Of a stretch of DNA of 64,000 bases, positions 10,169-12,468 are shown one piece after another. Numbering within the stretch: the stretch's first letter is position 1; each line of letters opens with the position of its first letter. The position numbers were made by a program, and so were the translations under genes. Source of the DNA: Erythrobacter sp. SD-21 (lineage in GTDB: Bacteria; Pseudomonadota; Alphaproteobacteria; Sphingomonadales; Sphingomonadaceae); the NCBI RefSeq assembly GCF_000181515.1, contig NZ_ABCG01000001.1:310001-374000 (forward strand), in the 5' to 3' direction. The notes beneath the pieces are model-generated. The model had not been told where the DNA came from and made no database searches. It saw only the letters and a list, made by a program, of their open reading frames with translations.

Positions 10169-10923
10169 TCTTTCCAGCCGGTTAGTGTCAGTATCTCGAA
10201 AGTTTCGAGTACGCGATCCTGGTCGTTCTTCGTGGTCAGGAACGCTGCGCGCGCGTTCTTCAGCGCTGCCTTGCCCAGCGGCGGAGCGGCGTTTGTAAGG
10301 CTCGACGTTAGTCCCTGATCGCGCAGGTCGGACACCAGCCGGTCGAGCGAACGGAAGGCCACTTCAAGGCTGCGGCTATCAACCACCTGACGCTTGAACA
10401 ATGCGCGCTGCATCAGCGCTGATGCCGCCGCGTTGTCGACCAGCGGATGCATCCGCGCCGCCGGCCGGTCGGGCTCCGCCGCGACCATAGCGCGGCGAAG
10501 ATTGGCGAGGCTGCCCGCACCGATCAGCGAAGCGATCAGCATTCCACCCTCGGCCAAGGCGCTGCGCAAATGGAGCAGGGCGCCGGGGAGATCGTTCACC
10601 CGGCCGAGCGAGGCGAGGCTGACGATCAGGTCGTAAGGACCGCCTTCCAGCGGCTGCTCTTCGTCCAGCGTGCGGACATTGGCCTCCTCCACCTGCGATC
10701 CGCGACCGCGAAGAGAAAGCGCGAGCGTTCCTGTCCAGTCGCCGATCACCAGCACGCGGGCCGGTTCGAACCGCATGAACTCCAGCCGGTCGAGCACATC
10801 CTCGACCATGTCGTCGAGAACATAGCGCGCCGCATCGCGCTGCGACTGGCGCACCAGCGCGCGACGGTAGCCTGCCTTGCGGCGCTGGCGGCTGAAGATG
10901 CGGGGAGGGGCCCTGTTATCCAT
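10165..10923 (-). CDS. SAM-dependent methyltransferase, NDUFAF5/BioC-like
   Basis: A 252-residue protein. The N-terminus has the basic RRKAGYRRALVR and AARYVLDDMVEDVLDRLEF pattern seen in the alphaproteobacterial relatives of mitochondrial NDUFAF5 and of BioC, followed by a degenerate class I glycine loop (VLVIGDWTGTLA) near residue 58 and motif DLIVSLASLGRVNDL near 100. The canonical GxGxG is not intact, so SAM binding is likely from the fold but not proven by motif. It is divergent from comF with 44 bp between starts. Confidence 0.72.
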   Translation of the reverse strand: MDNRAPPRIFSRQRRKAGYRRALVRQSQRDAARYVLDDMVEDVLDRLEFMRFEPARVLVIGDWTGTLALSLRGRGSQVEEANVRTLDEEQPLEGGPYDLIVSLASLGRVNDLPGALLHLRSALAEGGMLIASLIGAGSLANLRRAMVAAEPDRPAARMHPLVDNAAASALMQRALFKRQVVDSRSLEVAFRSLDRLVSDLRDQGLTSSLTNAAPPLGKAALKNARAAFLTTKNDQDRVLETFEILTLTGWKD

Positions 10924-10967
10924 TGCGCGTATCCATCGCGCGCTCCCCTGCCGCGCTTGCCAAATCC

Positions 10968-11756
10968 ATGCAAGCCATGCAGCAGGTTCCTATGGGGAGA
11001 GTAACCACGATAGGTCGGGCCGTTCGCGAGGGAATCGCGCCCTTCGTGGACCTCGTGTACCCACCTCGGTGTCCCGCATGCGGAGAAGCCATCGGCGAGC
11101 AGGGCGGGCTTTGCGCCGAGTGCTGGTCGGGCCTTGCGATCCCCGGCGACCCGAGCTGCGCTGCGTGCCAGCGTCCGTTTGGCGAGGTCGGGCCAAAGGA
11201 AGGATCATTCTGCGCACCGTGCCTCGAGAATGCTCCGATTCATGACGGGATCGCCGCCGGTACGCTGTATACCGAGGTCTCGCGCAAGCTCGTCCTTGCG
11301 CTCAAGCATGGACGCAGGATTGCGCTCGCCAAATTGCTCGCCCGGCTGATGACAGCGCGAATCCCGCCGACCGAGGGGGAGCGCCTGATCGTGCCGGTTC
11401 CGCTTCACCGCTGGCGGCTTTGGCATCGCGGCTTCAACCAGGCGGGGTTGCTGGCACGAGAGCTCGAGAAAGCGGGGTGTGGAACCTTGCTGGTCGATGC
11501 GATGCGCCGGACAAAGCGCACGCCCAGCTTGGGAGGGATGGGTGCGAAAGCTCGGGCGCGGGCGCTGGCGGGGGCCATCGAGGTCTCACGCCCCGAGCGA
11601 ATCGCGGGTCGAAATGTCTTGTTGGTCGATGATGTGCTGACCAGCGGGGCGACCAGCACGGCCTGCGTAAGAGCACTCAAGCGCGCGGGTGCGCGGACTG
11701 TGACGATTTCTTGTTTTGCGCGGGTGCTCGACGAAGCGCTTGATCATGCCCGCTAA
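10968..11756 (+). CDS. comF: ComF family phosphoribosyltransferase-like protein
   Basis: About 262 residues. Two zinc-finger-like cysteine pairs come first (CPACGEA with CAECW, then CAACQRP with CAPCL), followed by a type I PRTase domain whose PRPP-binding motif is VLLVDDVLTSGATS near the C-terminus. ComF proteins are needed for DNA uptake in naturally competent bacteria, but homologues are widespread and their biochemical role is unsettled. The start is uncertain: ATGs at 10968, 10977 and 10992 are in frame and none has a strong ribosome site; a TTG at 10923 would overlap the divergent gene. A candidate ncRNA converges on its 3' end. Confidence 0.88.
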   Translation: MQAMQQVPMGRVTTIGRAVREGIAPFVDLVYPPRCPACGEAIGEQGGLCAECWSGLAIPGDPSCAACQRPFGEVGPKEGSFCAPCLENAPIHDGIAAGTLYTEVSRKLVLALKHGRRIALAKLLARLMTARIPPTEGERLIVPVPLHRWRLWHRGFNQAGLLARELEKAGCGTLLVDAMRRTKRTPSLGGMGAKARARALAGAIEVSRPERIAGRNVLLVDDVLTSGATSTACVRALKRAGARTVTISCFARVLDEALDHAR

Positions 11757-11951
11757 GTGAAACGCCCAGGATCCGAAGATCCCGGGCGCCACGTGACGAA
11801 ATAAACCGGACCGTTTTGGTGCAGCCCCCCAGCATGCACCAGGTCCTATCCCTCATCGTTACCGGATGCGCCGCACATAAACCCCCATGCGGCTGCGGAT
11901 CCGGGACCCCCTGAACCTGGCGCTCTGCTGGCACCGTCGTTCCGGTGGGCA
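11757..11951 (-). ncRNA. Candidate structured ncRNA, 6S RNA-like rod
   Basis: A minus-strand transcription unit can be read here. Pairings are ACCGGA/TCCGGT (11805-11810 with 11941-11946), GGTG/CACC (11818-11821 with 11932-11935), CCAGCA/TGCTGG (11829-11834 with 11926-11931), CCAGGT/ACCTGG (11839-11844 with 11915-11920), then an open 17/10-nt bubble (11845-11861 and 11905-11914), then CCGGAT/ATCCGG and GCCGCA/TGCGGC closing a 12-nt loop. A promoter-like pair lies just upstream at 11958-11987 and a UUCG hairpin downstream at 11763-11788. The rod-bubble-rod architecture and length of about 195 nt resemble 6S RNA, but I could not confirm family sequence motifs. The strand is inferred from the promoter and terminator. 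Confidence 0.5.
11763..11788 (-). terminator. UUCG-capped hairpin, probable terminator of the candidate ncRNA
   Basis: On the minus strand CGCCCGGGATC pairs with GATCCTGGGCG around a UUCG loop closed by C-G, the very stable tetraloop, and is followed by TTTCACTT. On the plus strand the loop is CGAA and no T-run follows, so it is a better terminator for minus-strand transcription than for comF, which stops seven bases away. Confidence 0.6.
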
Positions 11952-11957
11952 GGCCTC

Positions 11958-11987
11958 ACATAACCTGCGAGTAGCTTCATCTCTCAA
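11958..11987 (-). promoter_or_regulatory. Sigma-70-like promoter for the candidate ncRNA
   Basis: On the minus strand TTGAGA (11982-11987) is followed after 18 bases by TTATGT (11958-11963). The predicted start, about position 11951, falls a few bases before the closing stem of the rod. It is a fair but imperfect match to the consensus; no other promoter evidence is available. Confidence 0.4.
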
Positions 11988-12019
11988 TTTGACCGTTCAT
12001 CAAACAGCGATCTGCGGCT

Positions 12020-12038
12020 AGTGTCGATTTTGGACACT
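12020..12038. promoter_or_regulatory. AGTGTC-N7-GACACT inverted repeat upstream of hisI
   Basis: Perfect 6-bp arms (12020-12025 and 12033-12038) with a 7-bp spacer, 55 bp before the hisI start. The rest of the interval 11988-12093 shows no gene. The symmetry suggests a protein-binding site; no known regulator is implied by the sequence. Confidence 0.4.
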
Positions 12039-12093
12039 CCTTGTGGTGATCCTGCAACAACCTGTCGTATTTATACAAAACCATGGAGCAATC

Positions 12094-12468
12094 GTGTCCT
12101 TCGACCCGTCCGAACGCGAAACCGGAAGCCAATTCCTGCCGAAATTCGACGAGAAGGGGCTCGTATGCGCCGTCGTTCAGGACACAGAATCGGGCACCAT
12201 CCTGATGGTCGCCTTCATGGACCAAGAGGCGCTCGACGCCACTCGGGAGACGGGCATCGCGCACTTTCATTCGCGTTCGCGCGGCAAGCTCTGGAAGAAG
12301 GGTGAGACGTCCGGAAATGTTTTGCGTGTGGAGGAGATCCTTGTCGATTGCGACCAGGATGCGCTCGTTCTGAGGTGCCGGCCGGCCGGCCCGACCTGCC
12401 ATACCGGCGCGGTGAGCTGTTTCTATCGCAGGCTCGAAGACGGTATTCTCCAACCCGTCAAGTCTTGA
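12094..12468 (+). CDS. hisI: Phosphoribosyl-AMP cyclohydrolase
   Basis: Third step of histidine biosynthesis, opening the ring of phosphoribosyl-AMP. The 124 residues are HisI only, without the HisE domain. Metal-binding motifs are visible: VDCDQDALVLRC and GPTCHTGAVSCF, plus SRSRGKLWKKGETSGN. I chose GTG 12094 with GGAG five bases upstream; an in-frame upstream start at 12043 would add 17 residues unlike the family. No other his gene is nearby. The stop codon lies inside a palindrome that probably controls the next gene. Confidence 0.95.
   Translation: MSFDPSERETGSQFLPKFDEKGLVCAVVQDTESGTILMVAFMDQEALDATRETGIAHFHSRSRGKLWKKGETSGNVLRVEEILVDCDQDALVLRCRPAGPTCHTGAVSCFYRRLEDGILQPVKS

Follow-up and report, generated by a model that had tools for sequence, protein, structure and literature searches.

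6S RNA (RF00013) resembles the RNA described here in being about 200 nt long, in having a gene of its own and in ending at a terminator. Among alphaproteobacterial trans-acting small RNAs, GsrN of Caulobacter is activated by sigma-T and uses a C-rich loop to pair with mRNAs that are G-rich; a figure legend of that account gives Erythrobacter litoralis as having no apparent gsrN-like gene (PMC5869019). Our RNA is like GsrN in lineage, presumed trans action and unpaired sequence of biased composition, but its segments are G-rich where the GsrN loop is C-rich, a comparison made by description only and from a partial source (PMC5869019). The SuhB sRNA of Sphingopyxis granuli TFA is described, in the excerpt available, as trans-encoded, 61 nt long, Hfq-dependent and conserved in its genus; set beside it by description only, the present RNA is far longer, at about 210 nt, and its family consensus has eight helices (PMC6563040). 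For Zms4 and Zms6, two sRNAs from the sphingomonad relative Zymomonas mobilis, comparison is likewise by description only in the passages available (PMC7064620, PMC6970203).

The window, by which we mean the whole 64,000-nt stretch of Erythrobacter sp. SD-21 DNA that was analysed, carries an RNA gene on the minus strand at about 11970–11757, between comF and hisI. A first-pass annotation had recognised here a complete noncoding transcription unit, which it likened to 6S RNA while allowing that the RNA could be an unnamed one. Both the transcription unit and the alternative of an unnamed RNA draw support from covariation, from synteny, from the fixed register of the promoter region and from Rfam 15, which returned no match at gathering score anywhere in the window. 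The likeness to 6S RNA did not survive: the RF00013 covariance model, proposed as a check, found no match on 11650–12120 even at E ≤ 10, a threshold at which this interval gave only two weak and unrelated Rfam matches. The genome's own 6S gene lies elsewhere (G000:C12:17960-18127, equivalent to L124:2461-2628), aligned over the whole RF00013 model with 43.6 bits, slightly below the gathering score of 46.4. 6S RNA was matched in 39 of 41 genomes at E ≤ 1 and exceeded the cut-off in only 27 of them, which suggests that sphingomonad 6S RNAs may be under-annotated.

Rfam searches of 20 relatives' loci gave no match at E ≤ 0.1, and over 14 loci linked to lolC or proS only tRNAs scored above cut-off. 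At one of those 14, ar35 (RF02346) aligned over the RNA with 27.9 bits, best at the terminator; we rejected this identity because the score is terminator-driven and far under the gathering value of 45. ar35 itself gave no match on the window region at E ≤ 10, nor in 20 other loci at E ≤ 0.1. Our literature searches, of partial coverage and mainly of open papers, yielded no recognised description of this RNA. It is thus probably an undescribed regulator, matching no Rfam 15 family.

Comparison among relatives supports the strand, helices H1–H5 and H7, the conserved segments, the register of the control region and the gene neighbourhood, and it reveals a relative elsewhere that has the same control element (Table 1). 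On the minus strand, 11952–11757 folds at -99.1 kcal/mol (z -4.0), lower than all 200 shuffles, whereas the plus strand of the same interval folds less well (z -2.9, with 2 of 200 shuffles equally low). G-U pairs outnumber A-C mismatches in the conserved helices by 252 to 48, an excess that identifies the minus strand as the RNA strand. When open reading frames closed within the RNA were compared across relatives, none was common in position, and a small-protein gene was dropped as a reading for that reason. The convergent neighbour scores below the respective cut-offs for both NCBIfam GntX (100.4 bits) and ComF (85.1 bits) and above them for Pfam DZR_2 and Pribosyltran; the true start of hisI, judged from the sequence, is probably at about 12084.

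Table 1. Features of the RNA locus, with the pairing and conservation recorded for each in the 52-sequence alignment or among relatives
Feature	Position	Strand	Remarks
comF/gntX-type gene	10923–11756	+	Convergent neighbour of the RNA gene
hisI (phosphoribosyl-AMP cyclohydrolase)	12043–12468 as listed ORF	+	Divergent neighbour; NCBIfam NF000768, 147.5 bits (cut-off 126)
Predicted transcript	11757–11970	-	About 210 nt, both ends predicted
Upstream element TGTTGCAGGATCACCACA, consensus TGTTGCA-N2-ATAACCACA	12042–12059	-	50/52 relatives
A-tract CAAAATC	12026–12032	-	22-nt spacing from the TGTTGC end to the AAAAT start
-35-like hexamer TTTGAT	11999–12004	-	At +55 from the TGTTGC start; bounds by eye
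-10-like hexamer GATGAA	11976–11981	-	At +78 from TGTTGC; bounds by eye
H0, 5' hairpin GCAGGUU...GGCCUGC	11949–11968	-	Between promoter and model start
H1 (CCgGAAC/GUUCaGG) around H2 (GGUGC/GCGCC)	11910–11945	-	52-sequence alignment: H1 89.8% of cells paired, two-sided changes in 5/6 pairs; H2 95.8%, 3/5 pairs
Segment GGUUCAGGGG	11908–11917	-	GUUC paired in H1, G-run partly unpaired
H3 hairpin CGGAU..GC.GCCGC / GCGGC.GC.AUCCG	11863–11903	-	Shortened or absent in some relatives; 89.8% and 87.0% paired, two-sided changes in 12/12 pairs (52 sequences)
Unpaired segment GAUGAGGGAU	11848–11857	-	UGAGGG in 46/52, full 10-mer in 28/52
H4 (GGACCU/CGGUCC) around H5 (GGUGCA.GC/GC.UGCACC), G-rich loop	11808–11846	-	52-sequence alignment: H4 93.2%, H5 95.4% and 91.0% paired; two-sided changes in 14/14 pairs
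Segment UUCGUCACG before terminator	11792–11800	-	UCGUCACG in 52/52, UUCGUCACG in 50/52
H7, intrinsic terminator-like hairpin GCGCCCGGGAUC-UUCG-GAUCCUGGGCGU	11762–11789	-	52-sequence alignment: 98.5% paired; of 12 pairs, 4 invariant and 5 with two-sided changes

The fold that the comparison supports is a chain of hairpins, with no rod. In the final alignment of 52 sequences, 42 of the 52 base pairs of this fold show two-sided changes (425 such cells), and 93.7% of cells are paired; shuffles reach 76.5%, and partners slid by 1–3 columns no more than 50.8%. These counts lean towards the model, since the alignments were fitted to it and the sequences are related rather than independent; despite this, the margin is a wide one. 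The first-pass annotation had proposed a rod of nested stems and a search for compensatory changes in relatives, which turn up in the hairpin chain, the rod stems staying near shuffle level. Specifically, the helices peculiar to the rod (GGUGC/GCACC and GCGCC/GGUGC) are paired in 69.8% of cells in 38 sequences, against 69.2% in shuffles, whereas local hairpins formed from the same letters reach 97.6% (shuffles 74.4%). A trace of rod signal is left, in that slid partners of the rod helices pair at most 56.3% and their two-sided cell count was reached by 19 of 500 shuffles.

The sequence elements listed in that annotation are indeed in place: TTGAGA at 11987–11982, TTATGT at 11963–11958, ACCGGA/TCCGGT and the C(UUCG)G hairpin. 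The pairing that it assigned to ACCGGA/UCCGGU as outermost stem holds in 71.7% of cells in 25 relatives, as opposed to 94.7% for GGAYCN/NGRUCC (H4), where 3 of 6 pairs show two-sided changes. When the segments are compared side by side, the GGAYCN that follows GAGGGAU pairs with the NGRUCC that precedes UUCGUCACG, through exchanges that include GGACCG/CGGUCC, GGAUCG/CGAUCC and AGAUCC/GGAUCU. After this reading H1 and H4 were substituted for P1 (ACCGGA/UCCGGU) and P3 (GGUUC/GGAYC) of an early fold, the basis of covariance models R1 and R2. In the 25 sequences of alignment A7, H1 and H4 are paired in 89.6% of cells and P1 and P3 in 84.4%; two-sided pairs number 3 for the former (reached in 100 of 500 shuffles) and 4 for the latter (55 of 500). 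Model R3, which contains H1 and H4, raises the scores of many distant relatives (L056 from 146 to 184 bits, L077 from 70.5 to 130) and lowers that of the window's own core, 11950–11756, from 205.7 bits with R1 to 182.6. An alignment-free test of H4 gave a weak result: pairing was perfect in 25 of 38 sequences, where 2000 permutations averaged 17.8 and peaked at 25, three rows mis-anchored on the wrong G-run being kept. As a single sequence that includes the 5' hairpin, the RNA of the window folds into a rod-like helix, GCGCCAGGUUC/GGACCUGGUGC. The earlier hand-fold was therefore reasonable for one sequence, and the RNA of this species could adopt a different fold.

The region of H0, taken as 27-nt stretches from 52 relatives, has a mean z of -1.63 against mononucleotide shuffles, with z ≤ -1 in 40 of 52 and above 0 in 6. 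A small hairpin, H6, occurs in about 40 of the 52 relatives and is absent from the window RNA. Of the terminator that had been claimed, the C(UUCG)G hairpin is present and the TTT tail is not quite as stated: the letters that follow are GUUUC, a weak U-run that would be poor for Hfq. CGCCCGG of the terminator is found in 48 of 52 sequences and GGGGG somewhere within the RNA in 50 of 52. GUUCAGGG is present in 40 of the 52.

The control region points to a promoter upstream of the one annotated before. TGTTGC-N5-8-CACA or -CAACA lies within 170 nt upstream in 50 of 52 relatives, compared with 0.05 occurrences on average, and at most 1, in 500 mononucleotide shuffles of the upstream regions; in the window's own genome the pattern occurs once, allowing up to 2 mismatches. 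The spacing of 22 nt between TGTTGC and AAAAT recurs in 42 of 48 loci having both, a T stands at +55 from TGTTGC in 50 of 51 loci and an A at +79 in 49 of 51. With H7, these features give the RNA a control region and a terminator of its own. No promoter emerged from a consensus sigma-70 scan, which makes an activator likely. TTATGT, earlier taken as the -10 hexamer, falls inside H0 (11968–11949), and TTTGAT (12004–11999) and GATGAA (11981–11976) keep a conserved register; together they place the transcription start, by our estimate, near 11970 rather than at about 11951.

As far as the R2 and R3 models and the patterns reach, the RNA is confined to one family, the one to which the Erythrobacteraceae among the named records belong. 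At the DNA level, 22 of 41 genomes searched gave matches, all in the window's genus (22 of its 25 genomes and none of the 16 from other families); of the three same-genus misses, G004 and G022 were recovered with R1 and G010 lay outside the R1 sample. Each of the 23 stretches matched within the genus, among which two share one place, is flanked by comF and hisI. R1 matched 136 of 296 genomes of the order, and R3 matched 213 of 396 at E ≤ 0.001, in 37 of 84 genera and a single family. At 47 bits or more, R3 finds 150 places in 26 genera. Some of the remaining 63 matches, which score under 47 bits, may be due to chance, since the model E-values are rough and unrelated Burkholderia and acidobacterial loci reach 23–27 bits with E below 0.001. 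Among 59 loci whose neighbours were read (L056–L114), comF adjoins 42, and hisI as well in 41. The remaining 17 adjoin a lolC/lolE-type gene (10 loci), proS (6) or neither (1), these gene names coming from one representative each.

A scan of named public genomes with a 19-base pattern returned at least 119 stretches. Among those listed, 55 reach at least 49 bits with R2 (33 of 80 and 22 of 39), and all 55 carry sphingomonad titles; Actirhodobacter was placed in the Erythrobacteraceae by look-up, and the other genera we take to be sphingomonads. Two unrelated loci, from Burkholderia and Acidobacteriota, match R2 at 26.5 and 22.9 bits and are taken as chance, and the remaining 62 of the listed loci gave no R2 match at E ≤ 0.01. 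Over 289 genomes of the class, R2 matched 12, of which 4 belong to the family and 8 lie outside it at 22–31 bits; six of these eight loci were inspected, none has TCGTCAC before the hairpin, and the out-of-family matches were set aside. We also discarded a second R2 match in the own genome (28 bits), which lies over the terminator at the end of a gene that by eye resembles clpB, and locus L103, a second weak match in a genome whose first is syntenic and which is taken as chance.

A shorter relative of the RNA adjoins lolC or proS in 16 of the 17 loci away from comF. Its kinship with the comF-linked RNA rests on motifs and promoter geometry, the R2 scores being 30–49 bits. UCGUCACG, read from the sequences, is present in 14 of the 16, and the upstream element in 11, with 5 having none. 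In all 11 that have the element, [GA]TGACA, a pattern picked after inspection of these sequences, starts exactly 55 nt after TGTTGC. The distance from TGTTGC to the -35 is thus 55 nt at both types of locus, and this shared geometry supports descent of the two forms from one ancestor, with the control region as part of the RNA gene. A pattern for the lolC/proS form matched 69 of 396 genomes from the order, spread over 5 genera, and a single one of 385 from the class, a member of the same family. The proS-linked loci L096, L107, L108 and L114 yielded no TGTTGC element and have an RNA diverged in its 5' half, with the module GGGGGCUGRCGA...UCGUCACGC intact. L101:1256-1351 (minus strand), in a relative, shows a weak match to the ROSE thermosensor (37.6 bits, gathering score 45) immediately ahead of an Hsp20-like gene.

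We propose, with moderate confidence, that this locus encodes an independent, structured sRNA of about 210 nt that acts in trans, belongs to one family, stands outside Rfam 15, is driven by an activator and pairs with mRNAs through its G-rich segments. In this mechanism, an activator would bind the TGTTGCA..CCACA element and bring about transcription from about 11970, and the RNA would fold into a hairpin chain that displays CAGGGG, UGAGGG, the GGGGG loop and UCGUCACG. The G-rich segments and UCGUCACG would base-pair with C-rich sites in target mRNAs and so alter their translation or stability. The two-domain Hfq of the genome, encoded at G000:C19:390495-390920 as a single 234-aa frame whose two Sm domains both exceed the Pfam cut-off, may assist in this pairing. 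Antisense pairing with C-rich mRNA sites seems to us the simplest reading of unpaired G-rich segments, and action in trans is favoured by the lolC- or proS-linked relative, whose control element is the same. Counting against the proposed role, no more than 27 and 28 of the 52 sequences retain the full 10-mers GGUUCAGGGG and GAUGAGGGAU, respectively.

The main rival to the antisense reading is a protein-binding role, as scaffold or sponge, in which a protein rather than mRNAs recognises the segments and the UCGUCACG-terminator region. We consider it unlikely overall, and it draws some strength from the invariance of UCGUCACG across all 52 sequences, from a lower terminator stem that barely varies, and from an RNA that is larger and more branched than GsrN and SuhB (PMC5869019, PMC6563040). 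Set against this, the G-rich 10-mers vary, the partner protein is only hypothetical, and the obvious client of a sponge, CsrA (PF02599), was not found in the own genome by a search that was positive in 3 of 14 control genomes; a CsrA sponge was rejected on that ground. ProQ was not found in the own genome either. Slightly more doubtful is the bolder suggestion of an undescribed global regulator in which a dedicated protein is bound by the G-rich segments and the UCGUCACG-terminator module, or in which these switch between exclusive folds as GUUC pairs with GARY or with GGAYC. If true, it would imply a dedicated activator with its element once in the genome, and a sphingomonad counterpart of 6S- or Csr-type control that works on another principle.

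A conformational switch proper is improbable. Four strands, GARY, GGUUC, GGAYC and GRUCC, would pair either 1 with 2 and 3 with 4 (H1 and H4) or 2 with 3, and the competing states are indeed widely available: in 25 relatives the 2:3 helix GGUUC/GGAYC, which competes with both H1 and H4, can form in 98.4% of cells, H1 (GARY near the 5' end with GUUC) in 84.2% and H4 as given above. Yet the 2:3 helix shows no two-sided changes, so that covariation cannot separate it from chance, and there is no downstream gene for a switch to control.

We give as little credence to a cis-acting role, in which the locus would be a leader, an attenuator or a terminator used from both sides between comF and hisI, and the upstream element would serve hisI. 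The locus does adjoin hisI, with the upstream element about 25–42 nt from its probable start, and the hairpin could terminate transcripts of both neighbours. Against this, the G-U excess assigns the RNA to the other strand from comF and hisI, the lolC- or proS-linked relative carries the same element, and the next gene on the RNA strand begins about 830 nt further on, past comF. Identity with 6S RNA, whether the only one of the genome or an additional one, as a rod whose central bubble binds RNA polymerase, is very improbable indeed, for the length, terminator and GC-rich rod-like helix in the single-sequence fold are outweighed by the negative RF00013 search, by the separate 6S gene, by 6S matches in 39 of 41 genomes and by rod-specific helices near shuffle level in what comparison resolves as a hairpin chain.

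Sphingomonads include pollutant degraders and marine photoheterotrophs, and our literature searches turned up few small RNAs from them. In our judgement its size, the strength of its constraint and its retention in at least 26 genera mark this RNA as a possible central regulator. Given a consensus fold, unpaired segments and a control element, both its targets and its activator are open to direct test. The element at 12042–12059 also lies about 25–42 nt before the probable hisI start, where the protein that binds it could affect hisI as well; an operator common to the RNA and hisI is conceivable.
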